In this document: positions 5,316 to 24,831 of the stretch, piece after piece
How positions within the stretch are numbered: position 1 is the stretch's first letter
Layout: every line of letters begins with the position of its first letter
NCBI GenBank assembly: GCA_020161655.1
Contig: JAIUPC010000004.1
Span: 62,001 to 126,000 of the forward strand
Length of the DNA: 64,000 bases
Origin: Pseudomonadota bacterium
Lineage (GTDB): Bacteria; Pseudomonadota; Alphaproteobacteria; Rhodobacterales; Rhodobacteraceae
Reading direction: 5' to 3'
Position numbers and translations under genes: made by a program
Notes under the pieces: generated by a model
Database searches by the model: none
Told to the model about the DNA's origin: nothing
Seen by the model: only the letters and a program-made list of their open reading frames with translations

Positions 5316-6644
5316 TCAAGGCTTCCACGTCTCGCGCAGCATGCGGGTGGAACCCCGGACGGAAGGCATCTCGCGCTGGCGTGCGACCGCCAGGATCTTT
5401 TCCGCCGCCAGATCAACGCCTGAGAACGCCGCCATGTCACGGCCATTGGCCTTGAGCCGGTCTCCCATCCCGAGGTCGTCCAGTGCCGTGCGGATGGTCT
5501 TGTGGAGATCCTCGGGCGCCCAGTCTGAGCGTTGAAGCATGTAGCCGGTCCCGGTCTCGACCGCTCGTCGGGCGTTGTCGTGCCCGTCCCAGCAATACGG
5601 CATGATGATGGAGGGCACGCCCGAGTAAAGCGCCTCGCAGAAGCTGTTGTTGCCGCCGTGGTGGATGAAGAGGTCGGCCTTGGCCACTACGCTTGGCTGC
5701 GGGAACCATCGTTCGAGGATCACATTGTCCGGCACCGCGCGATAGGCGTCGCGGAACCCGCCGACATTGACGAGGAACCGCGCGGGGAATTCGGCGAAAG
5801 CAGCAATGAGCCTCTGGATGAGGCTGGTATCCATCGCGCCAAGACTGCCGAACGACACATAGACAAGCGGGCCGGCCTTCCGGGCGAAATCAGGCACGTC
5901 GAACGGTGCTTCCTGCCGGACGCAGCCTTCGAGGTAGGTGAAGAGCGCCGGATCAAGTGGCGCCGCCCGGTCACGCCGCAGGATGGAGGGGGCAAGGAGC
6001 AGGTTGTGCCATGGCGAGGTTTCGAGGAATTGGGCGGGGGGTAGTCCCGGCAAACCGTGGCGCGCACGAAACTGGTTGTAGCGCGCATGAATCGGTCCGA
6101 TCACCGACTGATAGCGGGCGTCGAAGGCCGCGCGGCCCGCCGCGTCACCGGCTTTCAGGCCAGAGAGATAGGGCGGCACATTCGCGTCCGGCAGCTCGGT
6201 TTCGGCGCAGGACACGACCCGGACCCAGGGAATGCCGGCACGGGCGATGGCCGGAAACATGACGACGTTGTCGACGACGACCGCATCCGGCCTCAGCCGT
6301 TGAAGCAGCGCGAAGAGTGGCGCCTCGGCCTCTACGGCGGTATCGACGATCGCTTCCCAGGTGGGGGCGACATAGGTTTCGATCTGGTCGATGGGGGCGA
6401 GGTCGAAATGCGGCAGGTGGCGGCTGATGAAATCCTGCCAGTAGGTTTCCGGCGCTGTCGTGTCGGAGGCGGGGAGATGGTGTTCCTGGAATCCGTATTC
6501 CGAGAACACGCCGGAAAAACCGGCATGGCAGATAAAGACCGGCCGTGCGCCCTTGTCGCGAAGCGCCCGGGCGATGCCGACGCAATTCAGCGCGGCGCCG
6601 AAGCTCGCTTCGGGAAAGAAGGCGATCGTGGGGGGGCCGCCCAT
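5316..6644 (-). CDS. GT1-like glycosyltransferase (MGT/UGT fold), paralogue A
   Basis: Predicted cytoplasmic GT-B protein of the UGT/MGT superfamily, about 442 residues. Start 6644 is preferred: the preceding GntR gene stops at 6649, a GGGA box lies between, and the family-like start MGGPPTIAFFPEASFGAALN begins here. The C-terminal donor half is well kept: VYVSFGSLGAMD, ERWFPQPSVVAKADLFIHHG and the HHGGNNSFCEALYSG core. Two usual catalytic features are altered: the N-terminal loop lacks the GH catalytic His (AALN instead), and the donor-binding DQ motif reads WDGHDNA. A paralogue at 11508-12782 has the same changes. Forms an operon with GntR and diverges from the ABC operon. Donor and acceptor are unknown; a non-canonical activity is possible. 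Confidence 0.85.
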   Translation of the reverse strand: MGGPPTIAFFPEASFGAALNCVGIARALRDKGARPVFICHAGFSGVFSEYGFQEHHLPASDTTAPETYWQDFISRHLPHFDLAPIDQIETYVAPTWEAIVDTAVEAEAPLFALLQRLRPDAVVVDNVVMFPAIARAGIPWVRVVSCAETELPDANVPPYLSGLKAGDAAGRAAFDARYQSVIGPIHARYNQFRARHGLPGLPPAQFLETSPWHNLLLAPSILRRDRAAPLDPALFTYLEGCVRQEAPFDVPDFARKAGPLVYVSFGSLGAMDTSLIQRLIAAFAEFPARFLVNVGGFRDAYRAVPDNVILERWFPQPSVVAKADLFIHHGGNNSFCEALYSGVPSIIMPYCWDGHDNARRAVETGTGYMLQRSDWAPEDLHKTIRTALDDLGMGDRLKANGRDMAAFSGVDLAAEKILAVARQREMPSVRGSTRMLRETWKP

Positions 6645-6648
6645 TCCC

Positions 6649-7602
6649 TTACCCGCCGCGTCGCGGGGTGGCTGCAAGCGGCGGTGCCCCACGGTTAGCG
6701 GCCCGCGGACGCTGGCTTCCGGACAGGCGGAGATGAACGCGCAGAAGATCGGCCGCGACGGCGAACTGTCCGACCTCCATATGGTCGATGATCTGCAGGT
6801 GCTCCTGTATCGACTGTCGCAACCTCACGACGCTGACCCGGGCTGTCGCGCCGGGCAATTCGCGCAGACGATGATGCGCGGCGAGGGCTTCTGACAGGTA
6901 GCGATTGGCCGCGCCCCGGGCGATGAGCATGTGAAATTCCAGATCAAGCCGCCCGAAGCGGCCGCCGTCGAGCCGCTCATCGGGTTCGGCCAGAAGGGCG
7001 ACCAGTTCGCGCCGCAGCGCCGCCGACCGGTCGTGGTCGAGCGCGAAACCCGGCAGGACAAGTGCCGCCGGTTCCAGCACCAGGCGATACTCGATGCTGT
7101 CGGACTGCGATTCGGGACTGTCGGGCAGATGCGCGAAGACCCAGGACTGGCCCGGCGCGCGCGATACCAGCCCGTCGTCGGCGAGGGCGCCGAGTGCCTT
7201 TAGCACCGTCCTGCGGTCGCTTTGATAGCGGCGCGCCACCTCGCCCACCGTGATCGCCTCGTCGAGGCGCCGGGCGGCACGGTCGCGGATGATCCGCCCG
7301 GCGAGGTCCTCCTCGGCGGCGCCGGGCAGCCGGGGAAAGAGCGCGGAAGCCCCGACAAGGTCGTCGGAAAGCCGGTAGCCTCGGCCCGGTTCATGAACCG
7401 CAACCCCTTGATCCGCGAGTAATTTCAACGCCGCCCGGACCGGCGTGCGCGACACGTTGCACTGGCTGGCCAGAAGCTGTTCGGGCAGGTGCGCGCCGGG
7501 ACCGAGCGCGCGGTCGCGCACAAGGTCCAGAATCCGGCGCGCAAGATCCAGATGGTTCTGCCGGGGGCGAGGCGTTGATGTTCGACGTTCGGAAGTTTCC
7601 AT
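6649..7602 (-). CDS. GntR/FadR-type regulator with two winged-helix segments
   Basis: Start at 7602 has a GAGAGG box 4 bases upstream. The N-terminal part is a GntR winged helix (RILDLVRDRALGPGAHLPEQ, then VSRTPVRAALKLLADQGV). About 70 residues later comes a second helix-turn-helix-like segment (VGEVARRYQSDRRTVLKALG, then LVSRAPGQ), followed by an all-helical FCD-like ligand domain (FGRLDLEFHMLIARGAANRY). At about 317 residues it is longer than usual FadR-type proteins, consistent with the duplicated DNA-binding part. It lies between the two GT1-like operons, with four bases before paralogue A, and probably controls both the leftward and rightward units in response to the imported solute. Confidence 0.88.
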   Translation of the reverse strand: METSERRTSTPRPRQNHLDLARRILDLVRDRALGPGAHLPEQLLASQCNVSRTPVRAALKLLADQGVAVHEPGRGYRLSDDLVGASALFPRLPGAAEEDLAGRIIRDRAARRLDEAITVGEVARRYQSDRRTVLKALGALADDGLVSRAPGQSWVFAHLPDSPESQSDSIEYRLVLEPAALVLPGFALDHDRSAALRRELVALLAEPDERLDGGRFGRLDLEFHMLIARGAANRYLSEALAAHHRLRELPGATARVSVVRLRQSIQEHLQIIDHMEVGQFAVAADLLRVHLRLSGSQRPRAANRGAPPLAATPRRGG

Positions 7603-7632
7603 AAGCCTCTCGGTGATCCGCGGGCCAGTTAG

Positions 7633-7662
7633 GTATTGACGTATTTTTTCGCGCAATAATAC
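7633..7662. promoter_or_regulatory. AT-rich divergent promoter/operator candidate (GntR / ABC operon)
   Basis: The 160-bp GntR-ABC spacer contains an AT-rich core bounded by the inverted pair GTATT (7633-7637) and AATAC (7658-7662). A TTGACG -35-like box (7636-7641) and TAATAC (7657-7662) are 15 bp apart, a short spacer. The local AT content stands out in this GC-rich window. A likely site for the adjacent GntR protein. Confidence 0.4.
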
Positions 7663-7762
7663 ACTTAGGTCAAGGCAGGCGCTTATGATCTGCCAATCTG
7701 CGGTTCTATTTCCGCAAGAAAATACCGCTCCGCGCGGTCGACCCAACAGCAGAGGTATCGCC

Positions 7763-8815
7763 ATGTCTCACCTTGCATTCCGCCTTCGGTCGCTTCTGGC
7801 CGGCGCAGCAACCCTCGGGCTTGCCGCCGGTCCGGCGACCGCAGAACTCGTCATCTCGAACTGGGACGGCTACATGGCCCCCGATGCGGTGGCCAATTTC
7901 GCCACTGAATCCGGCGAGGCGGCAGAGATGGTCGTTCACGCCACCAACGAGGAAATCATGGGCAAGCTCATCGCGTCGGGCGGGGCGGGCTATGACGTTG
8001 TCTTCGTCTCCTCGCCCTTCGCCGAGGTGTTGCGCAATCTCAACCTCCTGGAGCCGATCGACCCGGCGAAAGTACCGAACCTTGCCAACCTCTATCCCGA
8101 GGCGACGGAACTGCCGCACGATCCGGGCAACACCTTCTCCGTCCCCTATGCCTGGGGGACGACCGGGCTATGCTACCGCTCCGACCTCGTGTCGCCGGAG
8201 CCTCAGTCCTGGAACGACCTCCTTCACCCGGCCGAGGCGCAGGCCGGGAAGATCACGCTTCTTGGCACCGACCGCTGGCTTCTGGCGGCAGGATTCCTTG
8301 CCAAGGGATATTCGGTGAACGAAACCAACCAGGCGAAGATCGACGAGGTCGAGGCCGATCTGATCGAGGCGAAGAAGACCATGCTCGCCTTCGATGACAC
8401 CACTTTCTATTCAAAGCTCGTCTCCGGCGAGGCCACGCTCGTCCATGCCTGGGACGGCTGGTGCAACTACGGCATTACCGAGAACCCGGCGATCAAGTTC
8501 GCTGTCCCCACCGAAGGCTCCGACCTCTGGGTGGACACGATGGTGGTGATGAAGGCGTCCCAGAACAAGGACGGGGCGTTCAAGTTCATCAACTACATCC
8601 TCGACGCCAAGAACCACGCCTGGGCGGCGGAGAACATCCTTTACAAGGTGCCGAACAAGCCGGCCATGGAAAGCCTGTCCGCCGAGATGTCGGCGACCTA
8701 TCCGAACATGGCGATGACGCCAGCCGAGCTTCTGAAGCTGGAGCAGCTTCGCGATGTCGGTGACGCGAGCCGCGCCTATGCCAAGGCCGTGAGCGCGATC
8801 AAGGCCGCACAGTGA
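7763..8815 (+). CDS. Polyamine-type ABC importer, periplasmic binding protein (cluster 1)
   Basis: PotD/PotF-family solute-binding protein, 350 residues. Start 7763 follows AGAGG and yields a signal peptide (MSHLAFRLRSLLAGAATLGL, cleavage after ATA before ELVISNWDGY). Family hallmarks are the ISNWDGYMAPDAV opening, YDVVFVSSPFAEV, SVPYAWGTTGLCYR and the late AWDGWCNYG segment. It captures a cationic or amine solute for the following permease genes. First gene of a rightward operon that continues through the transporter, a GT1-like gene, three cupins and an aldehyde dehydrogenase. A hairpin directly follows the stop codon. The exact ligand cannot be read from sequence. Confidence 0.92.
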   Translation: MSHLAFRLRSLLAGAATLGLAAGPATAELVISNWDGYMAPDAVANFATESGEAAEMVVHATNEEIMGKLIASGGAGYDVVFVSSPFAEVLRNLNLLEPIDPAKVPNLANLYPEATELPHDPGNTFSVPYAWGTTGLCYRSDLVSPEPQSWNDLLHPAEAQAGKITLLGTDRWLLAAGFLAKGYSVNETNQAKIDEVEADLIEAKKTMLAFDDTTFYSKLVSGEATLVHAWDGWCNYGITENPAIKFAVPTEGSDLWVDTMVVMKASQNKDGAFKFINYILDAKNHAWAAENILYKVPNKPAMESLSAEMSATYPNMAMTPAELLKLEQLRDVGDASRAYAKAVSAIKAAQ

Positions 8816-8821
8816 GCAAAC

Positions 8822-8845
8822 GGGCCGGGCGGCTGCGTCCGGCCC
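8822..8845 (+). terminator. Hairpin after binding-protein gene (cluster 1)
   Basis: Perfect 7-bp stem GGGCCGG/CCGGCCC with a 10-nt loop, starting six bases after the binding-protein stop codon and followed by a pyrimidine-rich CCTCTTCC. It probably stabilises the upstream mRNA or attenuates readthrough, giving more binding protein than permease. Confidence 0.55.
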
Positions 8846-8864
8846 CTCTTCCGATGGTCTCCCT

Positions 8865-9725
8865 GTGATCCCCTTCAACGCCCGCTCGACGTTTCTGATG
8901 GCACCGGCGCTCGCCTGGCTGACGGCGCTCATGGTGGTGCCTTGCGCGCTGATCCTCGCGCTCGGGTTCTTCCGGCGCGGGGTTTACGGCGGGATCGAAT
9001 ACACCTTCACGCTTGAGAACTTCGCTCTTCTGGGCGACCCGCTCTACGCCGGCATCTTCCTGACCTCGGCGCGGATCGCGGGCACCGCGACCCTGATCGC
9101 CGTAGTGATCGGCTATGCCGCGGCCTATGCCATCGCCGCGGCGCCGCGCCACCGCCAGCCGACTTTGCTGTTCTTCGCGGTGCTTCCGTTCTGGTCTAAC
9201 TACCTGATCCGCACCTATGCCTGGATCGTGCTTTTGAACCGCGAGGGGCTCATCACCCAGGGCCTGAGGCTGATCGGATACGAGGGTGAGCCGCCGTCGC
9301 TTCTCTACACGGAAGGCGCGGTCATCACCGGGCTGGTCTACAACTACCTGCCCTTCGTGATCCTCGCCTGCTATGCGCCCCTGTCCCGGATGAACCCCGA
9401 ACTGGCGGAAGCCTCGCGCGATCTTGGCGCCTCGGCGTTCACCACGTTCCGGCGGGTGATCCTGCCGATGACGGTGCCGGGCATCGCGGCCGGGGCGGTC
9501 TTCGTCTTCGTCCTCTCGATCGGCAATTTCATCACCCCGGCGCTTCTTGGCGGCGGGCGGTTCCAGATGATCGGCAACCTTGTCTATGCCCAGTTCCTGA
9601 CGGCGAATGACTGGCCCTTCGGGGCGGCGCTGTCGATGGCGCTCATCGCGCTCATGATGGGGCTGCTGACGCTTCAGGCCTTTGTCGCCGAAAGGGCCGG
9701 GGGGAGGGGGCCGAGCGATGGCTGA
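8865..9725 (+). CDS. ABC permease, PotB/PotH type (cluster 1)
   Basis: Inner-membrane permease of 286 residues with six predicted helices. The binding-protein-dependent transport EAA loop is clear: ELAEASRDLGASAFTTFRRV followed by ILPMTVPGI. Start is taken as GTG at 8865 because it gives a charged N-terminus before TM1 (FLMAPALAWLTALMVVPCAL); an ATG at 8898 is the alternative but would trim TM1. The stop overlaps the next permease start by 8 bp, showing translational coupling. Pairs with the second permease as a heterodimer. Confidence 0.92.
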   Translation: MIPFNARSTFLMAPALAWLTALMVVPCALILALGFFRRGVYGGIEYTFTLENFALLGDPLYAGIFLTSARIAGTATLIAVVIGYAAAYAIAAAPRHRQPTLLFFAVLPFWSNYLIRTYAWIVLLNREGLITQGLRLIGYEGEPPSLLYTEGAVITGLVYNYLPFVILACYAPLSRMNPELAEASRDLGASAFTTFRRVILPMTVPGIAAGAVFVFVLSIGNFITPALLGGGRFQMIGNLVYAQFLTANDWPFGAALSMALIALMMGLLTLQAFVAERAGGRGPSDG

Positions 9726-10512
9726 GCGCACGCCCGCATCCCGGATGAGCCTCGCCACGGTCCTCGTCCTGACCTTCGCCTTCCTTTATATCCCGATCGC
9801 CGTTCTGGTCATCCTCAGTTTCAATGCCGGTGGCCTGCCCACCGCCTGGACCGGCTTTTCGGTCAAATGGTACGTAGCACTTCTGGGGAACGCCGACATT
9901 CTCGGGGCTGCGCTGAACACGCTGATCGTGGCCGTGGTTTCGACCCTGATCGCAGCGGTTCTCGGAACGCTGCTCGCGCTTGGCATCGAGACGCGGCGGC
10001 GCCGGGGCCGGGCGCTGGAAGCGCTGATCTTCGCGCCAATGATCATTCCCGACATCGTCCTTGCCATCGCCCTTCTGTCGTTCTTCTCGCTCCTGAAGGT
10101 TCCGATGGGATTGCACACGATCATCGTCAGCCACGTCGTCTTCAACCTCGCCTTCGTGTCGGCGGTGGTGCGGGCGCGGCTGAAGGGTTTCGACTGGTCG
10201 GTGACGGAAGCCTCCGCCGATCTCGGGGCGTCAGGCTTTACCACGTTTCGCCGGGTCACGCTGCCGCTGATCCTGCCCGCCGTCATCGCGGGCGCGCTCC
10301 TCGCCTTCTCGCTCTCGGTCGACGAGTTCATCATCGCCTTCTTCACCGCAGGGGCGGGCCGCGCCTCGACCACTCTGCCAATGCAGATCTTCGCCATGAT
10401 CCGCTTCGGCGTGACGCCCGAGATCAACGCCCTTGCCACGCTGGTGATGATCGTCTCGGTGACAGCACTCGCGCTGTCGCAGCGACTGAACCGCGGGGTG
10501 ATCGCGCCGTGA
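9718..10512 (+). CDS. ABC permease, PotC/PotI type (cluster 1)
   Basis: Second inner-membrane permease, 264 residues. ATG at 9718 overlaps the upstream TGA and is preceded by a strong G/A-rich ribosome site (GGGGGGAGGGGG). TM1 reads [20 protein letters not shown], then the family pattern [19 protein letters not shown]. The EAA loop is [20 protein letters not shown] with [20 protein letters not shown] after it. Its stop shares GTGA with the ATPase start, so all three transporter genes are translationally coupled. Confidence 0.93.
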
Positions 10513-11492
10513 ATCCGCTCTTGTCCATCGACAGCGTGTCGAAACGCTTCGGCAAGGTGGTTGCCGTTGACCGGCTGTCGCTCGACATCATGGAGAACGA
10601 GTTCTTCGCGCTCCTCGGCGCTTCCGGCTCGGGCAAGACGACGCTTCTTCGGATGCTCGCGGGCTTCGAGACGCCCGAGGAAGGGGCGATCCTGCTCGAC
10701 GGGCGCGACATCAGCCGCGTGCCGCCGAACCGGCGCCCGGTCAACCTGATGTTCCAGTCCTACGCGCTTTTCCCGCATATGACGGTGGAAGGGAACATCG
10801 CCTACGGGTTGGAAATGGTGCGGCTGCCCGGGCCTGAGATCCGAAGCCGGGTTGGCGAGATCATGGAGATCACCGAGCTTGCCCCCATGGCGGGGCGCAA
10901 GCCCGACCAGTTGTCGGGCGGCCAGCGCCAGCGGGTCGCCCTTGCGCGTGCGCTGGTGAAAAGGCCGCGGCTTCTTCTCCTCGACGAACCGCTCGGCGCG
11001 CTCGACAAGAAGCTCCGCGCCGCCATGCAGCTTGAACTGAAGCGGCTCCAGACCGAAGTCGGCATCACCTTCATCGTCGTGACCCACGATCAGGAAGAGG
11101 CGCTGGTCATGGCCGACCGCGTGGCCATCCTGAAAGATGGGCGGCTGCTGCAGGTGGGTACCCCGCATGAGGTCTACGAACGGCCGGTGAACCGCTACGC
11201 CGCCGACTTCATCGGGGTGATGAACTTCATCGAGGAGGGTGGCAGGACCATCGCGATCCGGCCCGAGCGCATCCACCTCTTCCCCGACCGCGCCGACCGC
11301 ACCACCGAGGGGCGCATCGCCGCGCGGGCCTATCACGGGCTCGACCTGCAACTCCATGTCGAAACCCCGCTCTGCCCGCGCCCGCTGCTCGTCCGTCTGA
11401 CCGCCGACGCGGCTGACCGCCGGCCGGTGGCCGAAGGCGAAATCGTCACGCTCGGCTGGAACGATGCCGATACCCGCATCTTCACCGAATAG
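10509..11492 (+). CDS. ABC importer ATPase, PotA type (cluster 1)
   Basis: Cytoplasmic ATPase of 327 residues, starting at GTG 10509 which overlaps the permease stop (GTGA). Walker A is GASGSGKTT, the signature is [15 protein letters not shown], Walker B is [14 protein letters not shown] and the switch His is in [10 protein letters not shown] shortened C-terminal TOBE-like regulatory domain follows ([12 protein letters not shown]). At 327 residues it is shorter than typical PotA because the C-terminal domain is reduced. It energises the permease pair; the next gene begins 15 bp later. Confidence 0.94.
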
Positions 11493-11507
11493 GACAGGGA
11501 GCCATCA

Positions 11508-12782
11508 ATGACCCGGAAGACCTTTGCCTTTTTCCCCGAAGCCGCCTTCGGCCCGGCCTTGAACTCCGTCGGCATCGCCCAGGCCGTCGAGGCGCTGGGT
11601 CACAGGGCGGTCTTCCTCTCGGACCCGGGGTTCGTGGAGGTCTACAGGGGCTACGGCTTCGAGGCGCATCCCGTGGCATTGTCCGAACCGATGCCGCCGG
11701 AACAGATGGCGAAGTTCTGGGAGGACTTCATCAACGGTCACATCCCCAACTTCCGCAAGTCGCCCTATGACCAGATCGACAACTATGTGAAGGACTGCTG
11801 GACCGCGATCGTGGACAGCGCGAAATGGGCGCAGAAGGATCTGCCGGGCGTTCTCGCCAAGGTGAAACCCGACGTGATCGCGGTGGACAACGTGATCCTC
11901 TTTCCCGCGATCAAGCAGTACGGCGTCCCGTGGGTCCGCGTCATCTCCTGTTCCGAGAACGAGATCGAGGATGAAGAGATCCCGCCGCATCTGTCGGGCT
12001 GCGGCGAGAAGGACTTTGCCTGCCACAAAGCCTATCGCGACCGCTTCAACGAGGTCATCCGGCCGATCCACGACGACTTCAACGGCTTTCTCGCGCAATA
12101 TGATGAGGAGCCCTATCCGATCGGCCAGTTCTTCGAGGCTTCGCCCTACCTCAACCTGCTCCTCTACCCCGAGCCGGTGAAGTTCCACCGCAAGGACCCG
12201 CTCGATCCGGCCCGCTTCCAGTATCTCGAAGGCTGCGTGCGGAAGGAGGCGGCCTATGAGGTGCCGACTTTCGCGAAGAACAACGACGGGCCGCTGATCT
12301 ATGTGTCCTTCGGCTCGCTCGGCGCGGGCGATACCGAGCTTTTGAAGCGGATCATCGCGGCCATCGGCACTTCCCGGTTCCGCGCGCTGGTGAACGTCGG
12401 CGACTATCAGGGCGAATATGCCGACCTGCCGGGCAACGTCCATGTCGCGGGGTGGTTCCCGCAGCCCTCGGTCATCCCGCAGGTCGATGCGGTGATCCAC
12501 CACGGCGGCAACAACTCCTTCACCGAATGCCTCTACTTCGGCAAACCGGCGATCATCATGCCCTATGTCTGGGACGGTCACGACAACGCGACCCGCGTCC
12601 AGGAAACCGGTCACGGCTTCAAGATGCCGCGCTACGACTGGACCGACGCGGAGCTTCTGGCGAAGCTCGAGACATGCCTGACCGACAGGGCGATGGCGGG
12701 CAAGCTCGCGGCGACCGCGATGCACATGCAGGCTGAGAGCGGACCGGCCAAGGCCGCGAAGCTTCTTGTAGGGCTTTTGTGA
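11508..12782 (+). CDS. GT1-like glycosyltransferase (MGT/UGT fold), paralogue B
   Basis: A 424-residue GT-B protein closely resembling paralogue A at 5316-6644, including the opening FFPEAAFGPALNSVGIAQAV. The donor half has IYVSFGSLGAGD, VAGWFPQPSVIPQVDAVIHH and HHGGNNSFTECLYFGKP. As in paralogue A, the catalytic His of canonical GT1 enzymes is absent from the first loop (GPALN), and the donor DQ motif is WDGHDNA. The start has an AGGACAGGGAG ribosome site. Placed between the ABC ATPase and three cupin genes, it should act on the imported solute or a derivative. Shared divergence of both copies argues for a conserved altered function, not decay. Confidence 0.87.
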   Translation: MTRKTFAFFPEAAFGPALNSVGIAQAVEALGHRAVFLSDPGFVEVYRGYGFEAHPVALSEPMPPEQMAKFWEDFINGHIPNFRKSPYDQIDNYVKDCWTAIVDSAKWAQKDLPGVLAKVKPDVIAVDNVILFPAIKQYGVPWVRVISCSENEIEDEEIPPHLSGCGEKDFACHKAYRDRFNEVIRPIHDDFNGFLAQYDEEPYPIGQFFEASPYLNLLLYPEPVKFHRKDPLDPARFQYLEGCVRKEAAYEVPTFAKNNDGPLIYVSFGSLGAGDTELLKRIIAAIGTSRFRALVNVGDYQGEYADLPGNVHVAGWFPQPSVIPQVDAVIHHGGNNSFTECLYFGKPAIIMPYVWDGHDNATRVQETGHGFKMPRYDWTDAELLAKLETCLTDRAMAGKLAATAMHMQAESGPAKAAKLLVGLL

Positions 12783-13147
12783 TGAGCAGCGCCCCGCATC
12801 TTCACAACGCTTCGACACGCGACGACCTCGTGGACTGGGGCGCCCAGCCGGGCACGCTTGCCGGCGCGTCGCATTCCTCGGGGCGGCTGGTCCACAAGGG
12901 GCCGGACAACCGCCCGGAAATCGGCATATGGGTCTGCACGCCGGGGCGCTGGCGGCTCTCGATCCCGCGCTACGAGTTCTGCCATTTCGTCATGGGCCGC
13001 GCCACCTATCGGTCTGACGGGGGCGAGGTCATCGAGATAGGCCCCGGCACCGCCGTTCTCTTCCCCGCCGGCTGGGCCGGGGAATGCGAGGTGCATGAGA
13101 CCATCCGCAACACCTACTATCTGACCGACAGGGAGACAGGGAAATGA
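12782..13147 (+). CDS. DUF861-type cupin, tandem copy 1
   Basis: Small single-domain cupin of about 121 residues (GTG at 12779 or ATG at 12782; both overlap the GT1 stop in GTGATGA). It shares with the next two genes the pattern GxWxCTPG, EFCxFxxGR and a distal VxETI block. Likely metal-site residues are present: Glu and His of YEFCHFVMG and His of CEVHETI. Such cupins (COG3450) occur in catabolic operons as isomerases, aminohydrolases or binding proteins. Its stop overlaps the start of copy 2 by four bases. Reaction unknown. Confidence 0.85.
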   Translation: MSSAPHLHNASTRDDLVDWGAQPGTLAGASHSSGRLVHKGPDNRPEIGIWVCTPGRWRLSIPRYEFCHFVMGRATYRSDGGEVIEIGPGTAVLFPAGWAGECEVHETIRNTYYLTDRETGK

Positions 13148-13485
13148 CCACGCCGCACTGGCCGAACGCAGCTGCCGTGACGCTTGACGACTGGGGGCCG
13201 AGCAAGAACGTGCTCGAAGGTGCGCCGCACCTCTCGGGCAAGGTGATGCACGCAAATCCCGACGGGTCGAGCGAATGCGGCCTCTGGTCCTGCACGCCCG
13301 GCAGGCGCCGCGTCACCATTCCCGCGGACGAATTCTGCTATTTCGTCGCGGGCCGTGGCAGCTACATCGCCGACGACGGGCAGGACATACCCATCGCCCC
13401 CGGCGCCATGGTCTTCTTTCCGGCCGGCTGGAGCGGCCTCTGCATCGTCACCGAAACCGTCACCAAGGCCTTCATGAGCCGATAG
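13144..13485 (+). CDS. DUF861-type cupin, tandem copy 2 (metal ligands altered)
   Basis: A 113-residue cupin paralogous to its neighbours, with LWSCTPGRRRVTIPADEFC and FFPAGWSGLC matching their blocks. The two positions occupied by His in copies 1 and 3 are Tyr (EFCYF) and Thr (VTETV), so metal binding is probably lost. The frame is intact and tightly packed (4-bp overlap with copy 1, 7 bp before copy 3), so it is likely expressed, perhaps as a structural partner of an active copy. Function unknown. Confidence 0.83.
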   Translation: MTTPHWPNAAAVTLDDWGPSKNVLEGAPHLSGKVMHANPDGSSECGLWSCTPGRRRVTIPADEFCYFVAGRGSYIADDGQDIPIAPGAMVFFPAGWSGLCIVTETVTKAFMSR

Positions 13486-13492
13486 GACAAAC

Positions 13493-13840
13493 ATGACCAC
13501 CCCACCTTTGATGCGCCGACCTCTTGAACAGACCGACCTCGTCGACTGGGGCGTGATCCCGACCATGATCGAGGGCGAAAGCCGCACCTCGGGCCGCGTG
13601 ATCTACAAGGGCCCCGATGGCGAAAGCGAAAGCGGCCTCTGGGTCTGTACGCCCGGCAAGTGGTTCTGCCACGTCACCCGCGACGAGTTCTGCCACTTTC
13701 TCGAAGGGCGCTGCACCTATGTCCACGAGTCCGGCGAGGTGATCGAGATCACGCCCGACACGGCGGCCTTCTTCCCGCAGGACTGGAAGGGCACCTGCAC
13801 CGTCCACGAGACCATCAAGAAGGTCTACATGATCCGCTGA
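13493..13840 (+). CDS. DUF861-type cupin, tandem copy 3
   Basis: A 115-residue cupin. It keeps the shared motifs SGLWVCTPGKW, RDEFCHFLEGR and CTVHETIKKVYM, including both candidate metal-ligand His residues missing from copy 2. It starts seven bases after copy 2 and ends six bases before the aldehyde dehydrogenase start, inside the same operon. It probably handles the same or a related metabolite as copy 1. Enzymatic versus binding role cannot be decided from sequence. Confidence 0.85.
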   Translation: MTTPPLMRRPLEQTDLVDWGVIPTMIEGESRTSGRVIYKGPDGESESGLWVCTPGKWFCHVTRDEFCHFLEGRCTYVHESGEVIEITPDTAAFFPQDWKGTCTVHETIKKVYMIR

Positions 13841-13846
13841 GGCACC

Positions 13847-15355
13847 ATGGAATTCGATCCTACCCGCCCCGCCTTCTTCGTCACGCCCCGGTTTCACCCG
13901 ATGTCGGGCATGGCGCGCGATGTCAGCGACCCCGCGACGCTTGACCCCGTGGGGCGCATCGCCGAGGCCTCGGAAGCCGAGACTGAGGCCGTGCTCGACG
14001 CCGTCAGCGCCGTGCAGGCGAAATGGAAGCGGCTGGATGCCAAGGCTCGCGCCAAGATGCTCCACGACCTCGCCAATGTCATCGAGGCAACGGACCACCG
14101 GGCGGCCGCGATCCTGATGAGCCGCGAGATGGGCAAACCCTATCCCGAGGCCATCGGCGAGATCGCGAATTGCGCGCCGGTCTTTCGCTATTATGCCGAG
14201 ATGGCGCGGGATGAAGCGGGCAAGGTCGCGGGAACAACTCAGGCCGGATCGTTCCAGTATGCGCGCTACGAACCCTATGGCGTCTCGGTCCACATCATGC
14301 CGTTCAACTTCCCGGTCCTCCTGATGTGCTGGACGGTCGCGGCCTCGCTCGCCGCAGGGAATGGCTGCATCGTGAAGCCGGCGCCGGCAACGACATTGTC
14401 CACGCTCGAGTTCATGAAATGCTTCGGCGGGTTGCCGGAAGGCCTCGTCGCTTGTCTGCCGGGCGGGGCAGCGCTGGCCGAGCGGCTGATCGCTTCGCCG
14501 CGGACCCATGCCGTCGCCTTCACCGGGTCGGTCGCCGCCGGCAAGGCGGTGGGCATGGCCGCAGCGGCAGCGATGAAACCCGCCGTGATCGAGGCGGGCG
14601 GCAGCGACCCGATGATCATCTGCGAGAGCGCCCCCCTCGATGTCGCGGCTGCAGGGGCGGTGACGGCGGCCTTCCACCTCTCCGGGCAGGTCTGTACCTC
14701 GGCCGAGCGGTTCTATGTCGTCGACGCGGTTCACGACGCTTTCGTCAGCGCCTTCGCCGAACGGGCAAAGGCGCTTCGCGTTGGCAACGGGCTTGCTAAG
14801 TCCGAAATCGGCCCGCTGGTGTCAGAGGCCGCACGCGCCCGTGTGGAACGGCTTGTCGCGGACGCGGTGGCCAAGGGGGCAAAGGTCGTCACGGGCGGCC
14901 GGGTGCCCCCCGAATTTGACAAGGGCTGGTTCTATGAGCCGACGATCCTGACGGGCTGCGCCGATGATATGGAGCTTCTGCAATCGGAATGCTTCGGCCC
15001 CGTGGCGGCTATCGTCCGGGTAAATGACTTCGAAGAGGCCGTGACCCGGGCCAATGCTTCGCCGTTCGGGCTGGGCGCCTCGGTCTTCACGACAAGTCTC
15101 GCGGAGGCGATGGAAGCCGCCGAACGGCTCGAATCCGGCATGGTCTGGATCAACAATCCGCTCATCGACAACGATGCGCTGCCCTTTGGCGGCTGGAAGG
15201 CCTCCGGCCTCGGGCGTGAGCTCGGGCGGCAGGGGCTGGACGCCTTCAGGCGGACCAAGATGGTCATTCTCGACCACAAGCCGGTGGTGCAGGGCTGGTG
15301 GTATCCCTATCCCGACGACTGGTTTCTCGACAGCGGCGGGCGGGGCACGGGCTGA
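13847..15355 (+). CDS. NAD(P)-dependent aldehyde dehydrogenase
   Basis: A 502-residue aldehyde dehydrogenase superfamily enzyme oxidising an aldehyde to its acid. The catalytic Cys lies in SGQVCTSAERF (about residue 283), the general-base Glu in IEAGGSDPMI (about 249; the usual ELGG reads EAGG), the stabilising Asn in MPFNFPVLL (154) and the cofactor-binding Lys in VKPAPATT (177). C-terminal ECFGPVAAI and LPFGGWKASGLGRELG are standard. It ends the operon that begins with the amine-type importer, which suggests oxidation of an amino-aldehyde or sugar-derived aldehyde. Closest group by motifs: succinate-semialdehyde/aminobutyraldehyde dehydrogenases; substrate not proven. Confidence 0.92.
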   Translation: MEFDPTRPAFFVTPRFHPMSGMARDVSDPATLDPVGRIAEASEAETEAVLDAVSAVQAKWKRLDAKARAKMLHDLANVIEATDHRAAAILMSREMGKPYPEAIGEIANCAPVFRYYAEMARDEAGKVAGTTQAGSFQYARYEPYGVSVHIMPFNFPVLLMCWTVAASLAAGNGCIVKPAPATTLSTLEFMKCFGGLPEGLVACLPGGAALAERLIASPRTHAVAFTGSVAAGKAVGMAAAAAMKPAVIEAGGSDPMIICESAPLDVAAAGAVTAAFHLSGQVCTSAERFYVVDAVHDAFVSAFAERAKALRVGNGLAKSEIGPLVSEAARARVERLVADAVAKGAKVVTGGRVPPEFDKGWFYEPTILTGCADDMELLQSECFGPVAAIVRVNDFEEAVTRANASPFGLGASVFTTSLAEAMEAAERLESGMVWINNPLIDNDALPFGGWKASGLGRELGRQGLDAFRRTKMVILDHKPVVQGWWYPYPDDWFLDSGGRGTG

Positions 15356-16457: not shown

Positions 16458-17534
16458 ATGAAACATCAGGGATTTGCACTAGCAGCCGCTGCGGCAGTCG
16501 TGCTGGCGGCAGGGTCTGCGGTTGCCCAAAATGGTGCCCCGGTGGCAGGTGAAACGGCGGAAGGGTCGCTGGCGGGCAAGACGCTGACCTTCGTGTCCTG
16601 GGGCGGCATCTACCAGGACGGCCAGGCCAAGGCGCTGGAAGCCTTCGCCGCGCAGTCCGGCGCGACCATCCTGCAGGACGGCCCGACCGAGGTTGCCAAG
16701 CTGAAGGCGCAGGTGGAATCGGGCAATGTGACCTGGGATGTCGTCGATACCGGCGACCTGACGCCCTATGTGCATTGCGGCACGCTCTTCCAGGAGCTGG
16801 ATCTCTCGAAGATCGACGTCTCGAAGGTGCCGGAGGGCCAGGTCGGCCCCTGCAGCGTTCCGGCGGTGAACTACGGCGTCGTGCTGATGTACAACACCGA
16901 AACCTATGGCGATAACCCGCCGACCTCGTGGAACGACTTCTTCGACACCGAGAAGTTCCCCGGCCTGCGCGCCGTCGATGGTACCGGCGACCCGAGCGGG
17001 CCGCTGATGGAACTCGGCCTGATCGCGGCTGGCGGGTCAACCGCAGCGATGACGGTCGCCGACATCGACACCGGCATCCAGAAGATCCGCGATCTGGGCG
17101 AAGACACCATCTTCTACAAGACCGGTGCGGAATCCCAGCAACTGGCCGAATCCGGCGAAGCCGACATGATCATGATGTGGTCGGGCCGCGCGATGGAGGC
17201 GACCAAGAACGGGGCCAAGTTCGCGCCGGTCTGGAAGGACTGGATCGTCGCCATGGACCAGCTTGCCATCCCGGTCGGGGTGAAAGACGTCGACGGGGCC
17301 CATGCGATGGTCAACGCCTATCTTGGCAAGACGGCGCAAGAGACCGTCAGCGAGATGACCTCCTATTCGCCGGTCAACACCGAAGCCCAGCCGAAGCTTG
17401 GCGAGGATGAGGCGAAGTTTCTGACCAGCAGCCCGGAACGGCTTGCGACGGCCTATTACCAGAACATCCCGTTCTGGGTCGAGAATGCCACCGTCGCCAC
17501 CGAAAAGTGGAACGCGCTCCTCTCGGGAAACTGA
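16458..17534 (+). CDS. Polyamine-type ABC importer, periplasmic binding protein (cluster 2)
   Basis: Periplasmic binding protein (COG0687-like), 358 residues, with a signal peptide ending VLAAGSAVAQ before NGAPVAG. Core blocks: LTFVSWGGIYQDGQAKALEA, VTWDVVDTGDLTPYVHCG, VNYGVVLMYNTETY and ADMIMMWSGRAMEA. A GACAGGGAG ribosome site precedes the ATG. It differs clearly from the cluster 1 and 3 proteins, implying another ligand. It heads an operon with two permeases, an ATPase and a flavin oxidase, and is followed by a strong hairpin. Confidence 0.92.
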   Translation: MKHQGFALAAAAAVVLAAGSAVAQNGAPVAGETAEGSLAGKTLTFVSWGGIYQDGQAKALEAFAAQSGATILQDGPTEVAKLKAQVESGNVTWDVVDTGDLTPYVHCGTLFQELDLSKIDVSKVPEGQVGPCSVPAVNYGVVLMYNTETYGDNPPTSWNDFFDTEKFPGLRAVDGTGDPSGPLMELGLIAAGGSTAAMTVADIDTGIQKIRDLGEDTIFYKTGAESQQLAESGEADMIMMWSGRAMEATKNGAKFAPVWKDWIVAMDQLAIPVGVKDVDGAHAMVNAYLGKTAQETVSEMTSYSPVNTEAQPKLGEDEAKFLTSSPERLATAYYQNIPFWVENATVATEKWNALLSGN

Positions 17535-17572
17535 CCGGCGCAGTACCGCCACCGCAGATGAACCTTGAACCA

Positions 17573-17595
17573 CCCCCGGCCATTCAGGCCGGGGG
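17573..17595 (+). terminator. Hairpin after binding-protein gene (cluster 2)
   Basis: Perfect 9-bp stem CCCCCGGCC/GGCCGGGGG with a 5-nt loop, between the binding-protein stop and the permease start. No T-tract follows, so attenuation or 3'-end mRNA protection fits better than full termination. Confidence 0.55.
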
Positions 17596-17613
17596 GGAAC
17601 GCAGGACCGAAAG

Positions 17614-18441
17614 ATGCGCCAGGGACTTCGCCTCTCACTCCTGATCCTGCCCGCCCTCGTGATCGTCCTCGCCGTCATGGCCTGGCCGCTGGCGGTGCTG
17701 ACCGGGCTCAGCTTCTCGTCACCAGAGCGGGGACTTCAGAACTACGAATGGTTCTTCGCCTCGAACAAGAACGTCACCGTTCTGATCCGCACCTTCGCGA
17801 TCTCGGGCTGGGTGACGCTCGTGTGCCTCGTCTGTGCTTACCCCTACGCCTATCTCCTGACCGCCGTGACGCCGCGCACCCGGCTGATCCTGCTCATGGG
17901 GGTCATGGTGCCGTTCTGGATCAGCGGCACGGTGCGGACCCTGGCCTGGGTGGTGATCCTGCAGGACTCGGGCGTCATCAACACCGCGCTGCAATCCATC
18001 GGTCTTGAGAAGGTGAAGCTGATCCGCACCCAGCTTGGCGTGACCATCGGCATGGCGCAGGTCCTGCTGCCCTTTGCCATCCTGCCGCTTTATTCCGTGA
18101 TGAAGGCCATCGACCTGCGCCTGATGCGCGCCGCGCGCAGCCTTGGCGCCGGGCCGGTCTGGGCCTTTGTCAGTGTCTATCTGCCGATGTCGGTTCCCGG
18201 CATCGTGGCTGCGGCAAGCCTCGTCTTCATCCTGTCGCTGGGCTTCTACATCACGCCCGCGCTTCTCGGCGGCCCGCGCAGTGTGATGCTGTCGTCGCTG
18301 GCGCAGACCCAGGTTTCGACCCTGCTTGACTGGGGCAAGGGCGGCGCCATCGGGGTGATCCTCCTCGCCTCGACCTTTGCCGTGCTGGCCCTGGTCGCAC
18401 CCTTCGTCCGCCAACGCTACCGCAAGGGAAGCCGCTCATGA
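17614..18441 (+). CDS. ABC permease, PotB/PotH type (cluster 2)
   Basis: Six-helix inner-membrane permease, 275 residues. TM1 is LILPALVIVLAVMAWPLAVL, and the EAA loop LRLMRAARSLGAGPVWAFVS is followed by VYLPMSVPGIVAAASLVFIL. The G-rich arm of the preceding hairpin and an AGGACCGAAAG box lie upstream of the ATG, so folding of the hairpin could influence initiation. The stop overlaps the next start by four bases. Confidence 0.93.
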   Translation: MRQGLRLSLLILPALVIVLAVMAWPLAVLTGLSFSSPERGLQNYEWFFASNKNVTVLIRTFAISGWVTLVCLVCAYPYAYLLTAVTPRTRLILLMGVMVPFWISGTVRTLAWVVILQDSGVINTALQSIGLEKVKLIRTQLGVTIGMAQVLLPFAILPLYSVMKAIDLRLMRAARSLGAGPVWAFVSVYLPMSVPGIVAAASLVFILSLGFYITPALLGGPRSVMLSSLAQTQVSTLLDWGKGGAIGVILLASTFAVLALVAPFVRQRYRKGSRS

Positions 18442-19232
18442 CCGGCCGCATCGCGCAAGTTCTGCTTTACGTCTTCGTCGGGCTGATCTTCCTCTGGCTG
18501 GTGGCGCCCACGCTGGTCATCATTCCGATGTCCTTCAACGAGAACAAGTCGCTGGCCTTCCCGCCCGTCGGCTTTTCGATGAAATGGTACGCCAACCTGA
18601 TCCAGAGCGACGACTGGATGCGCGCCACGCGCCAGTCGGTCCAGATCGCTGCATCGGTGGCACTCCTCTCGACCGTAACCGGCACGCTTGCCGCCCTGGG
18701 GCTGGTGCGGCTGAACCAGCGCATTGCCGGCTGGCTCAGGGCCTTTCTCCTCGCCCCGCTGATCGTGCCGGTCGTGGTCATCGCCATCGGCATCTATGCG
18801 GTGTTCCTCGATCTCGGGCTGGTCGGCAGCTACACCGGCTTCATCCTTGCCCATACCATGCTGGCGGTGCCTTTCGTCGTCGTCACCGTCTCGGCCAGTC
18901 TTGAGATGTTCGATGCGCGGCTTCTGACGGCAGCGCAAAGCCTTGGCGCCAATCCGGTGCGGGCGTTCCAGACCGTGACCCTGCCACTGATTGCGCCGGG
19001 GGTGCTGTCGGGCGCGCTCTTCGCCTTCGTCACCTCGTTCGACGAACTGGTGATCTCGCTTTTTCTCAACAGCCCCTACGTCAAGCCGCTGGCGGTGCAG
19101 ATCTACTCCAGCATCACCCGCGATTCCGACCCCACGGTCGCGGCGGCGGGCACGCTGATCTTCGTGGCGACAACGGCCGCCGTGGCGCTGGCCATGCTGA
19201 TCGGCCGACTTTCCAAGGACAAAAGACCATGA
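18438..19232 (+). CDS. ABC permease, PotC/PotI type (cluster 2)
   Basis: Second permease of the heterodimer, 264 residues. Start ATG sits in an ATGA overlap with the previous stop. Recognisable segments: VVAPTLVIIPMSFNENKS-like TM1 exit, FPPVGFSMKWYANLIQSDDW, and the EAA loop RLLTAAQSLGANPVRAFQTV with TLPLIAPGVLSGALFAFVTS. Its stop overlaps the ATPase ATG (ATGA), so the transporter genes are coupled. Confidence 0.93.
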   Translation: MTGRIAQVLLYVFVGLIFLWLVAPTLVIIPMSFNENKSLAFPPVGFSMKWYANLIQSDDWMRATRQSVQIAASVALLSTVTGTLAALGLVRLNQRIAGWLRAFLLAPLIVPVVVIAIGIYAVFLDLGLVGSYTGFILAHTMLAVPFVVVTVSASLEMFDARLLTAAQSLGANPVRAFQTVTLPLIAPGVLSGALFAFVTSFDELVISLFLNSPYVKPLAVQIYSSITRDSDPTVAAAGTLIFVATTAAVALAMLIGRLSKDKRP

Positions 19233-20359
19233 CCCAGACCCAGGCAACGGCTGCAAGCATCGAAGTCAGGAACGCCACCAAGGCCTATGGCAGCTTCAAG
19301 GCGATGAAGGATGTCAATCTTCACGTCGACGCGGGGGAGTTCGTGACCCTCCTTGGCCCGAGCGGTTCCGGCAAGACCACCACGCTCAACGTCATTGCCG
19401 GGTTCACCGACCTGACCTCCGGCTCGCTTGAAATTGGCGGGCGCGCGGTCGATGGCCTTCCTGCGCACAAGCGCAACATCGGCGTGGTGTTCCAGAACTA
19501 TTCGCTCTTTCCGCACATGACGGTCGAGCGCAACGTGATGTACCCGCTGACCTTGCGCAAGATCGCCCCGGAGGAGCGTCGCCGGATGGTCGGCGAGGCG
19601 CTTGAGATGGTGCGCATGTCCGAATTCGCCCATCGCTACCCGAGCGAGCTGTCGGGCGGCCAGCAACAGCGGGTGGCGCTGGCGCGGGCGCTGGTGTTCC
19701 GGCCGCCGCTGCTTTTGATGGACGAACCCTTGGGCGCACTCGACAAGAAGCTGCGCGAATGGCTGCAACTGGAGATCAAGCGGCTGCACCGCGAGTTGGG
19801 CACGACCTTTGTCTTCGTGACGCATGATCAGGAAGAGGCCTTGGTGCTGTCGGACCGGATCGCGGTCTTCAACGCCGGGCGCATCGAACAGATCGGCACC
19901 GGGCGCGACCTCTACGACGATCCGCAATCGCTCTTCGTTGGCCAGTTCATCGGCGAATCCACGCTTCTCCGCGGTGCGACCAGCGTGAACGCCGGGCAGA
20001 CCGTGCTGACGCTGGCCGGGCAAAGCGTGGTGGCAGATACCCCCTCCGCCGCCGTCAAGTCGCCGGTGTTCTTCCTCCGCCCCGAGCGGATGGACCTCGT
20101 TGCCCCCGGCGGGGCCAGCCCGCATGCCAACCGCTTGCGCGCGAGCATAACCGAGGCGATCTATCTCGGCGCGGGCAGCAAGTACGAATTGCGGTTGGCC
20201 GACGGTTCCGCCGCCACGGTGCGGCTTGGGCTTGACCGCCCGACATGGGACATCGGCGCCGAGGTCGATGTCGTCTTCTCGCCGCAGGATGTGAAGGTCC
20301 TCGATGGCAGCGGTCTGGCGGCGTCCGACCAGATGGCCGAGATGATGCAGGCGCATTGA
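19229..20359 (+). CDS. ABC importer ATPase, PotA type (cluster 2)
   Basis: A 376-residue ATPase. Walker A GPSGSGKTTT, signature [15 protein letters not shown], Walker [15 protein letters not shown] and switch [11 protein letters not shown] are intact. The C-terminal TOBE-like domain (FLRPERMDLVAPGG, then ASITEAIYLGAGSKYELRLA) is complete, unlike the shortened one in cluster 1. Starts within the upstream stop (ATGA) and is followed after two bases by the flavin oxidase gene. Confidence 0.94.
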   Translation: MTQTQATAASIEVRNATKAYGSFKAMKDVNLHVDAGEFVTLLGPSGSGKTTTLNVIAGFTDLTSGSLEIGGRAVDGLPAHKRNIGVVFQNYSLFPHMTVERNVMYPLTLRKIAPEERRRMVGEALEMVRMSEFAHRYPSELSGGQQQRVALARALVFRPPLLLMDEPLGALDKKLREWLQLEIKRLHRELGTTFVFVTHDQEEALVLSDRIAVFNAGRIEQIGTGRDLYDDPQSLFVGQFIGESTLLRGATSVNAGQTVLTLAGQSVVADTPSAAVKSPVFFLRPERMDLVAPGGASPHANRLRASITEAIYLGAGSKYELRLADGSAATVRLGLDRPTWDIGAEVDVVFSPQDVKVLDGSGLAASDQMAEMMQAH

Positions 20360-20361
20360 CC

Positions 20362-23112: not shown

Positions 23113-23114
23113 TC

Positions 23115-24038: not shown

Positions 24039-24831
24039 GCGCTATTCGGTCCAACGCCAGCGCGGCTTCACGCTGATCGCGCTGTTCTGCTTCGTGCTCC
24101 TATACCTGCCGATGGTGACGCTGGTTGCCTACGCGTTCAATGCGGGCATCTCCACCAGCAACTGGGAAGGCGTCTCGCTGCGCTGGTTCCATGCCGCCGC
24201 CGCCAACGAACGGATCATCGACGCCACTTTGCGCTCGCTGACCATCGCGCCAATCGCCGGGCTGATCGCCACCGTCGCGGCAACCATGGCCGCGCTCGCC
24301 ACTACGCGGACGGCACCTTATCCCGGGCTGACCTTCAAATACGCCTTCATCAACCAGCCGCTGATGGTGCCGGAAATCGTCACCGCCGTGGCGCTGCTGG
24401 TGGTGTTTTCGCAAGTGAAGGTCTGGACCGGCTATTCCGGCCTTGGCTACCTGATCGCGGCCCACACCGCCTTCTGCATCCCCTTCGCCTACCTGCCGAT
24501 CAAGGCGCGGCTGGAAACCATGGACCTGACCTTGGAACGCGCGGCGGCGGATCTTTACGCCCGGCCATGGATGGTCTTCCGCCGTGTCACCCTGCCGCTT
24601 CTCTGGCCCGGCATCCTTGCGGGCTTCATGCTGGCCTTCGTCGTCTCGCTCGACGATGTGGTGATCACCGAATTCGTGAAGTCCGCCGGGCAGGAGACGC
24701 TGCCGACCTACATGCTGGGTCAGCTTCGCCGTCAGGCAACGCCCGAGATGAACGCGATCTCGACGGTGTTCCTCGGGCTCTCCATCGCCGTCGTCACCCT
24801 GTTCTTTTTCCTGAGCCGCAGGAAAGACTGA
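24031..24831 (+). CDS. ABC permease, PotC type (cluster 3)
   Basis: A 266-residue permease overlapping the previous gene by eight bases. TM1 FTLIALFCFVLLYLPMVTLV leads to YAFNAGISTSNWEGVSLRWF, the standard PotC-like pattern. EAA loop: LTLERAAADLYARPWMVFRR then VTLPLLWPGILAGFMLAFVV. Forms the translocation pore with the upstream permease. The binding-protein gene follows after 33 bases with an AAGGGAAG ribosome site. Confidence 0.93.
   Translation: MARRYSVQRQRGFTLIALFCFVLLYLPMVTLVAYAFNAGISTSNWEGVSLRWFHAAAANERIIDATLRSLTIAPIAGLIATVAATMAALATTRTAPYPGLTFKYAFINQPLMVPEIVTAVALLVVFSQVKVWTGYSGLGYLIAAHTAFCIPFAYLPIKARLETMDLTLERAAADLYARPWMVFRRVTLPLLWPGILAGFMLAFVVSLDDVVITEFVKSAGQETLPTYMLGQLRRQATPEMNAISTVFLGLSIAVVTLFFFLSRRKD

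Follow-up and report, generated by a model that had tools for sequence, protein, structure and literature searches.

Positions 5316-15355 of the window, i.e., of the whole 64,000-nucleotide stretch analysed here (contig JAIUPC010000004.1 of the Rhodobacteraceae assembly GCA_020161655.1, positions 62,001 to 126,000), hold a pair of divergent transcription units in which two atypical glycosyltransferase family 1 (GT1)-like proteins, GT_A and GT_B, are encoded together with an amine-type importer, three cupins, and an aldehyde dehydrogenase (ALDH). The minus-strand unit reads GntR-GT_A and the plus-strand unit PotD-PotB-PotC-PotA-GT_B-cupin 1-cupin 2-cupin 3-ALDH. An earlier reading of the sequence, referred to here as the original prediction, had placed every gene at the positions given below, and both the open reading frames (ORFs) and the Pfam matches agree with it. 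The cluster is filed as a known kind of system, an amine import and oxidation operon, whose new part is an altered GT1 step without an assigned role. The original prediction knew of no named pathway with this gene set, and no description of it was found in the literature searched, which is weak evidence, since subscription papers mostly lay outside the coverage; a lead into the homarine and roseobacter literature came to nothing.

5316..6644, minus strand: GT_A, GT1-like protein of 442 aa, paralogue of GT_B (PF06722/PF00201), second gene after GntR, with Ala at the catalytic His position and WDG for x-D-Q
6649..7602, minus strand: GntR-family regulator of 317 aa (Pfam: two GntR helix stretches and FCD)
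7641..7662, no strand: putative operator GTATT-N12-AATAC, overlapping the promoter-like TTGACG/TACACT (7636-7665)
7763..8815, plus strand: PotD-like periplasmic binding protein with Trp172 (Pfam solute-binding families, homologue alignment)
8865..9725, plus strand: PotB-like permease (from translation and place; conserved order)
9718..10512, plus strand: PotC-like permease (from translation and place; conserved order)
10509..11492, plus strand: PotA-like ATPase (from translation and place), whose GTG start overlaps the PotC stop
11508..12782, plus strand: GT_B, GT1-like protein of 424 aa (PF06722/PF00201), with Pro16 at the catalytic His position, WDGHDN, and the residues that bind nucleoside diphosphate (NDP) kept
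12779..13147, plus strand: cupin 1, EutQ-like (PF05899, DUF861)
13144..13485, plus strand: cupin 2 (PF05899, DUF861), the type least often found in relatives
13493..13840, plus strand: cupin 3 (PF05899, DUF861), the type beside the GT in the outlying loci described below
13847..15355, plus strand: ALDH (PF00171), with SGQVCTSAER (Cys) and IEAGG (Glu)

Neighbouring genes of the plus-strand unit overlap by a few bases at four junctions (PotB/PotC, PotC/PotA, GT_B/cupin 1, and cupin 1/cupin 2). The Cys and Glu of the two ALDH motifs are presumably the residues that such enzymes use.

Residues, predicted fold, and selection in GT_A and GT_B

GT_A and GT_B are 49% identical, and both match PF00201 and PF06722 above the gathering scores, in each case on the C-terminal half; these are families of the GT1 UDP-glycosyltransferases of CAZy. 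The scores against the macrolide glycosyltransferase model TIGR01426 (109.2 and 105.8 bits) are below its cut-off of 260. The catalytic base of GT1 enzymes is a His in the first loop, or an Asp in GtfA-like members. The closest solved protein by sequence is the spider-mite UGT203A2 (7lvy, E 3.6e-52), and in the HMMER alignment with this enzyme Pro16 of GT_B aligns with the His of FGHVN and Gly357 with the Gln of GDQHDN.

The same replacements run through a family alignment of 201 rows, which are not independent of each other and comprise GT_A, GT_B, two haloarchaeal proteins, and six proteins from two outlying genomes (G872 and G786), two of these six being cut before the first loop. The His position is occupied by Pro in 104/104 GT_B rows and by Ala (87) or Ser (2) in the 89 GT_A rows, and W-D-G is present in all 201 rows of the family. 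As controls, 14 GT1-like rows were used, 13 of them from the class search described below and one a low-scoring plasmid row from Pseudomonas frederiksbergensis that is meaningless as a control; Asp occupies the His position in 11 of the 14, and the donor site has Gln in 10. The plasmid GT-like pieces of P. frederiksbergensis (45.7%, three pieces) were otherwise left unused, since they are spread across small ORFs among type VI secretion genes. Thus, the original claim that HHGGNNS and the FPQPSV donor block are kept, while the first-loop His is gone and WDG takes the place of DQ, stands, and the alignments with UGT203A2 and across the family rule out that His and Gln had merely been misplaced in that reading.

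The donor block itself is strongly conserved: W316, P318, Q319, H332-G-G-N-N, and E340 are invariant in a 34-row alignment, and in the family alignment Q319, H332, and E340 are found in 201/201 rows and W316 in 200/201. Moreover, Glu11, Gly15, and Asn19 are present in each of the 199 rows covering the first loop, and Asp127-Asn128 in 201/201. From this pattern, Glu11 and Trp355 are candidate residues of a new active site. The predicted structure points to a full-length GT-B fold; the AlphaFold2 model of GT_B (predicted local distance difference test, pLDDT, 91.5; predicted template modelling score, pTM, 0.89) best matches 7mco (TM 0.89, 27% identity in the structural match), followed by other GT1-type enzymes. 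GT_A and GT_B share with known GT1 enzymes (UGT203A2, 7lvy/7mco) the W-x-P-Q and HGGNN...E donor block, whereas they differ in having Pro or Ala for His, DG preceded by Trp for DQ, and an invariant Glu11, and in their setting, since the operons of this family also encode an amine-type importer, cupins, and ALDH.

The ratio of nonsynonymous to synonymous substitution rates (dN/dS; Nei-Gojobori method) was calculated against two close relatives for each protein: GT_B gives 0.07 and 0.09, GT_A 0.22 and 0.14. Given these low values, both genes are maintained by purifying selection, GT_A evolving faster, and decay of either one is ruled out by two pairwise comparisons each. The divergence shared by the two paralogues, which had been attributed to selection for a changed activity, is therefore real, common to both, and under selective constraint. 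It is conceivable that GT_A and GT_B are dead enzymes with a regulatory role or a structural one alongside the cupins or the ALDH, as the loss of both the catalytic His and the Gln might suggest. However, this is quite improbable in view of the strong purifying selection and of first-loop and sugar-site residues that are invariant beyond the NDP site. The same losses, together with the strict conservation of Glu11, Asn19, Asp127-Asn128, and WDG, would also be consistent with a GT-B fold recruited for a non-glycosyl reaction, e.g., an activation or isomerisation carried out with a cupin, in which Glu11 and Trp355 would form the new active site and the sugar kinases found in some clusters would be bystanders. 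This alternative appears unlikely, as the usual NDP-binding residues are retained and enzymes capable of making sugar-1-phosphate recur in or beside some clusters.

The order in which the two residues were lost can be approached through three actinobacterial relatives (35-37% identical), whose altered first loop, P-E-S-A-Y-G-P, has no His but which keep D-Q (WDQ) in 3/3 cases; thus, the base was probably lost before the Gln. A tree of 64 rows places the 22 GT_A rows in one group (support 100/99) and the 22 GT_B rows in another (99/96). The 13 outlying rows fall on the GT_B side with weak support (84/70), and the actinobacterial rows lie between the outlying rows and the distant controls, a tree for which the program gave a long-branch warning. 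The spider-mite UGTs that provide the nearest solved structures (UGT203A2 and UGT202A2) reportedly belong to a family of bacterial origin, and the bacterial lineage described here may be related to its donor.

Co-inheritance, distribution, and variants of the cluster

Among 244 genomes of the order, GT_B finds matches at E <= 1e-30 in 12, the genome of the window included, with exactly two matches in each, namely GT_B and GT_A, which are encoded on opposite strands at a distance of about 6 kb. PotD (E <= 1e-90) and cupin 3 (E <= 1e-45) are found in the same 12 genomes, and all fall below threshold together in the other 232. G099, a genome of the same genus as that of the window, stays below every threshold for GT_B, GT_A, PotD, and cupin 3. 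Therefore, the cluster is an accessory island, present all-or-none and gained or lost as a block. The conserved co-occurrence on which the original prediction had made its case depend is thus present and far above chance, and a chance neighbourhood is ruled out by the co-inheritance in 12/244 genomes together with the gene order in the named loci described below. In a sample of the phylum, matches at E <= 1e-20 occur in 8/398 genomes, with two matches in seven of these. A profile search of a class sample, in which four first-look candidates were scored per genome, found members at 549 bits or more in 13/385 genomes, and the next match scored 61 bits, a gap that marks the family as sharply bounded.

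Named genomes, when scanned, yielded at least 562 relatives, the best 80 of which were taken as named loci; this set is weighted towards close relatives, with Mesorhizobium frequent among them, and the counts that follow are thus not independent. The genera include Defluviimonas, Mesorhizobium, Rhizobium, Shinella, Pararhizobium, Ruegeria, Shimia, and Ancylobacter. GT_A, GntR, and ALDH were each found in 76 of the 80 loci, PotD and PotB in 77, PotC in 78, and PotA in 79, and the complete run GT_A-GntR-PotD-PotB-PotC-PotA-GT_B is present in 76; ORFs judged antisense (F3, F8, F10, F52, and others) were disregarded in the gene calls at these relatives. Non-cupin genes that are absent fall at contig ends, with the sole exception of a contig from a metagenome-assembled genome (L099), on which 9 kb upstream of GT_B contain neither importer nor GT_A. 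The number of cupins is three in 34 loci, two in 36, one in seven, and none in three, and in the seven one-cupin loci short or divergent cupins may have escaped detection. Thus, the three cupins of the original prediction describe the window, although their number is not fixed and varies from one to three per locus where contigs reach. Likewise, the pair of GTs holds for the window and most loci, but GT_A is dispensable: in four genomes of one genus (G251, G759, G849, and G919) a single GT was found, and a gene for a flavin adenine dinucleotide (FAD) oxidase follows the ALDH. The GT_A-less cluster of G251 has two further neighbours (L122, 16738-18753), which from the sequence look like an XRE-type regulator and a flavin amine oxidase.

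Several lineages have added genes to this common layout. In the Mesorhizobium type, GT_A is followed by a glutamine-synthetase-like (GS-like) ligase and an FAD oxidase (35/80 loci each). A GS-like gene stands after the ALDH in three loci (L047, L051, and L052; 64-68% identity), and two of the 80 loci have weak GS-like similarity only (26% and 38%). The Rhizobium/Shinella type has a second ALDH beside GT_A (18/80) and a saccharopine-dehydrogenase-like gene after the ALDH (20/80). Five named loci (L044, L062, L113, L115, and L117) have an AmgK-like kinase (PF01636) inserted between cupin 3 and the ALDH, as do three genomes of one genus from another class (G301, G305, and G384). The latter contain a second, more distant kinase copy elsewhere (35-38% to the L062 kinase, with one in-frame TGA per match), which suggests that the kinase in the cluster is a dedicated paralogue.

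Other loci keep only part of the set. Plasmids of Natrialba magadii and Natronorubrum aibiense carry a block of IclR, a GT_B-type protein (59% identical), a cupin, ALDH, a ROK kinase, and a phosphoglucomutase, preceded by an FAD oxidase, while the more distant genes vary in type or position; the search, which covered plasmids, found one GT on each. In eight further genomes (G644, G847, G757, G668, G629, G674, G872, and G786) the GT-cupin pair is kept, the cupin match starting within 60 bases of the end of the GT match. Reading outwards from the GT, in some cases over a short stretch only, did not turn up the ALDH or the majority of the importer genes. The exceptions are a PotA-like gene or piece adjoining the GT in G644, G847, and G629, and an ALDH (54%) adjoining a GT in G786. 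Counting these eight, the four single-GT genomes, and the two haloarchaea, a cupin adjoins the GT in 14/14 outlying loci (in G786 at the second GT), in every case a cupin of the cupin 3 type. GT and adjacent cupin are therefore the smallest recurring unit and the tightest link in the system, and its persistence in loci where neither the ALDH nor the bulk of the importer genes turned up nearby is a further argument against dead partners of the cupins or the ALDH.

Four of these genomes show additional peculiarities. In G629 (L165, 9674-9784), the cupin is followed by a 37-residue ALDH-like piece, as if the ALDH had been lost, and in G668 (L164, 4566-5318) two family cupins lie in one reading frame directly after GT_B. 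In G872 (L166, 981-19133), two GT paralogues and a cupin stand with old yellow enzyme (OYE)-type flavoenzymes, a PhyH protein, and, as read by eye, a Liv-type importer, and in G786 (L167, 5637-11236) two GT paralogues and a cupin with a GcvT-like protein and ALDH. To judge from these neighbours, the last two genomes appear to represent another catabolic setting of the GT-cupin pair, and the OYE-type flavoenzymes and GcvT-like protein beside family members count in favour of the non-glycosyl reaction considered above.

The actinobacterial relatives show a different arrangement. On plasmids of Streptomyces sp. NBC_01483 and Nonomuraea gerenzanensis, the D-Q relative lies behind PotD, PotB, PotC, and PotA (47-53% identical to those of the window), followed in N. 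gerenzanensis by an ALDH-type gene (38% to ALDH2). None of the importer, ALDH, or cupin neighbours was found beside the D-Q relative of S. coeruleorubidus, and a BLAST search with the cupins of the window, cupin 3 included, found no cupin in the three actinobacterial plasmid records.

Importer, cupins, and the putative operator

The Glu at one PotD site holds an amino group of spermidine. In HMMER alignments, Trp172 of the window's PotD stands opposite this Glu in E. coli PotD, 4eqb, and 4gl0, and Trp172 is present in 16/16 of the cluster PotDs aligned (out of the 77 PotDs in named loci and others) as well as in both actinobacterial PotDs. A diamine is thus an unlikely ligand, since Trp stands where the polyamine-type homologues have Glu; the ligand may instead combine one charged amine with a ring or other group stacked on the Trp. 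The amine-type importer of the original prediction therefore holds loosely, although a diamine, as bound by the three polyamine-type homologues, is improbable.

These observations bear on another explanation of the locus, namely ordinary polyamine catabolism of the Puu kind in which two unrelated GT genes are carried along. It would account for a PotD/PotF-like importer and, in some versions, for the GS-like ligase and a PuuB-like oxidase. However, it is highly improbable: GT_B lies inside the operon and is co-inherited as strictly as the importer, it occurs without most importer genes in several lineages, and PotD has Trp in place of the Glu. The Puu/Pau pathways and the present clusters share an ALDH and, in many cluster versions, an FAD oxidase; by analogy, they would also share a co-substrate attached to an amine, and the GS-like ligase is found in the Mesorhizobium-type and Natrialba loci. 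In contrast, the window's cluster, read by eye, has neither ligase nor amide hydrolase and contains GTs and cupins instead, and its PotD does not look like a diamine-type protein.

The three cupins score 57.3, 57.3, and 59.3 bits against PF05899 (gathering score 23.5). The model of cupin 3 (pLDDT 95.9) has its best structural match in 3bcw (24% identity), with EutQ structures lower, which is consistent with the cupin fold of EutQ/DUF861 proteins. Cupins usually bind their metal through a His-x-His motif. The present cupins differ from known EutQ/DUF861 cupins in occurring as tandem copies beside a GT and in lacking His-x-His, instead of which E65, C67, and E106 are invariant in 24 rows.

The putative operator recurs between GntR and PotD. 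The pattern GTAYT-N12-ARTAC, which was framed after viewing some of the regions, is present in 70 of the 81 regions between GntR and PotD, whose limits were set by where the BLAST matches end; many of these loci are closely related. The symmetric base pair is matched in 63 of the 70, and over all 1.67 Mb of loci the pattern occurs at 78 places (156 strand matches). Exact-palindrome counting did not pick out an operator in these loci. In the window, the palindrome overlaps TTGACG-18-TACACT, which is promoter-like by consensus match only (9/12 matches). GntR probably regulates the divergent promoters. The regulator itself (6649-7602) has tandem GntR helix matches followed by FCD, and such a tandem winged-helix build seems to be uncommon.

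Possible role of a sugar handle in amine catabolism

The reading that we favour, tentatively and at somewhat less than an even chance, is that an imported amine is broken down with the help of an NDP-sugar whose sugar is recycled, in analogy to the Puu pathway. GntR would control the two divergent operons through the palindrome over the promoter, and PotDBCA would import an amine, probably not a diamine. GT_B, with GT_A where present, would then transfer a sugar from an NDP-sugar onto the amine or its oxidation product, the EutQ-type cupin next to the GT would act on the sugar conjugate, and an FAD amine oxidase and the ALDH would oxidise the carbon skeleton. The FAD amine oxidase is linked in many versions of the cluster, and the nearest one in the window is 5 kb further on, beside another importer. 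Finally, the sugar would leave and be recycled to sugar-1-phosphate and then to NDP-sugar. In such a scheme, the sugar would work catalytically as a handle, in the role that glutamate has in the Puu pathway, and amines, or carboxylates made from them, may need no base for the transfer.

Two known pathways bear on such a cycle. Gamma-glutamylation, the precedent for lending a group to an amine, does so in the Puu/Pau steps (PMC9397018), and AmgK-MurU converts a free sugar to its 1-phosphate and then to UDP-sugar in cell-wall salvage (PMC5371407). The sugar kinases and the phosphoglucomutase in some cluster versions give indirect support to the sugar conjugation of an amine that the original prediction had proposed: the AmgK-like kinase, or ROK kinase and phosphoglucomutase, can both yield sugar-1-phosphate and lie beside an intact NDP site, which suggests that a sugar is lent and returned. 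The five named loci and three further genomes described above share an AmgK-like kinase with the AmgK/MurU system, but here it is a separate paralogue in an amine-type operon and scores below the AmgK cut-offs. No MurU partner was noticed at the kinase loci, where no search was aimed at MurU. We regard as doubtful the full form of the proposal, in which a recyclable NDP-sugar handle replaces glutamate, a base-less GT1 acts with a EutQ-type cupin, a kinase returns the sugar, and the module or its forerunner spans Pseudomonadota, Actinomycetota, and haloarchaea.

Several points weigh against a recycled sugar handle. With both the base and the donor Gln lost, sugar transfer may not take place at all. 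A sugar kinase is absent from the window's cluster and was not found in 75/80 named loci, and recycling would therefore depend mostly on housekeeping kinases; moreover, no glycosidase was seen in the core. The L062 kinase reaches 246 bits against a cut-off of 500 for NF045698 and 122.4 against 550 for NF045759, and the haloarchaeal ROK kinase and mutase are also below their NCBIfam cut-offs, while both haloarchaea belong to one family and their ROK gene lies on the opposite strand. The gamma-glutamyl-type ligase of the Mesorhizobium type would make a sugar handle redundant there, and the palindrome is missing in 11 of the 81 regions, including all three of G301, G305, and G384.

The best rival reverses the direction of the sugar step. 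The imported compound would be an amine glycoside, from which the GT-like protein and the cupin would remove the sugar, either as a hydrolase or towards uridine diphosphate (UDP); a kinase would take up the sugar, and the aglycone would pass to the FAD oxidase and the ALDH. Stacking of aromatic side chains on sugars is common, and Trp172 of PotD in place of the polyamine-type Glu would fit such a ligand. A lost catalytic base would also suit a changed reaction, and some versions have sugar kinases even though a glycoside hydrolase was not seen in the core. On the other hand, a GT working in reverse yields NDP-sugar, which makes a kinase unneeded; the 1-phosphate formed by AmgK suits the making of NDP-sugar better than direct catabolism, and no hydrolytic residue was identified. 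Deglycosylation therefore has only a modest chance of being correct.

If the GT step acts on the imported compound, the clusters would represent a widespread route of amine breakdown that is not described in the literature searched, present in rhizobia, roseobacters, and salt-lake archaea, in which cells use a sugar as a helper. It would also explain a sharply bounded GT1 lineage that bears just the label 'glycosyltransferase' in the annotations consulted, and a GT1 working without the textbook base would be of use for understanding and engineering N- or acyl-glycosylation.

The surroundings of the cluster contain further transport genes. At the left end of the window, a partial transposase-like ORF (13-507) is presumably of the IS6 type. 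Downstream, two more Pot-type importers (16458-20359 and 21985-25896) bring the number of such importers to three in about 18 kb; an FAD oxidoreductase (approximately 20359-21672) lies between these two, and an amidase-like ORF (25996-27423) is found past the second.

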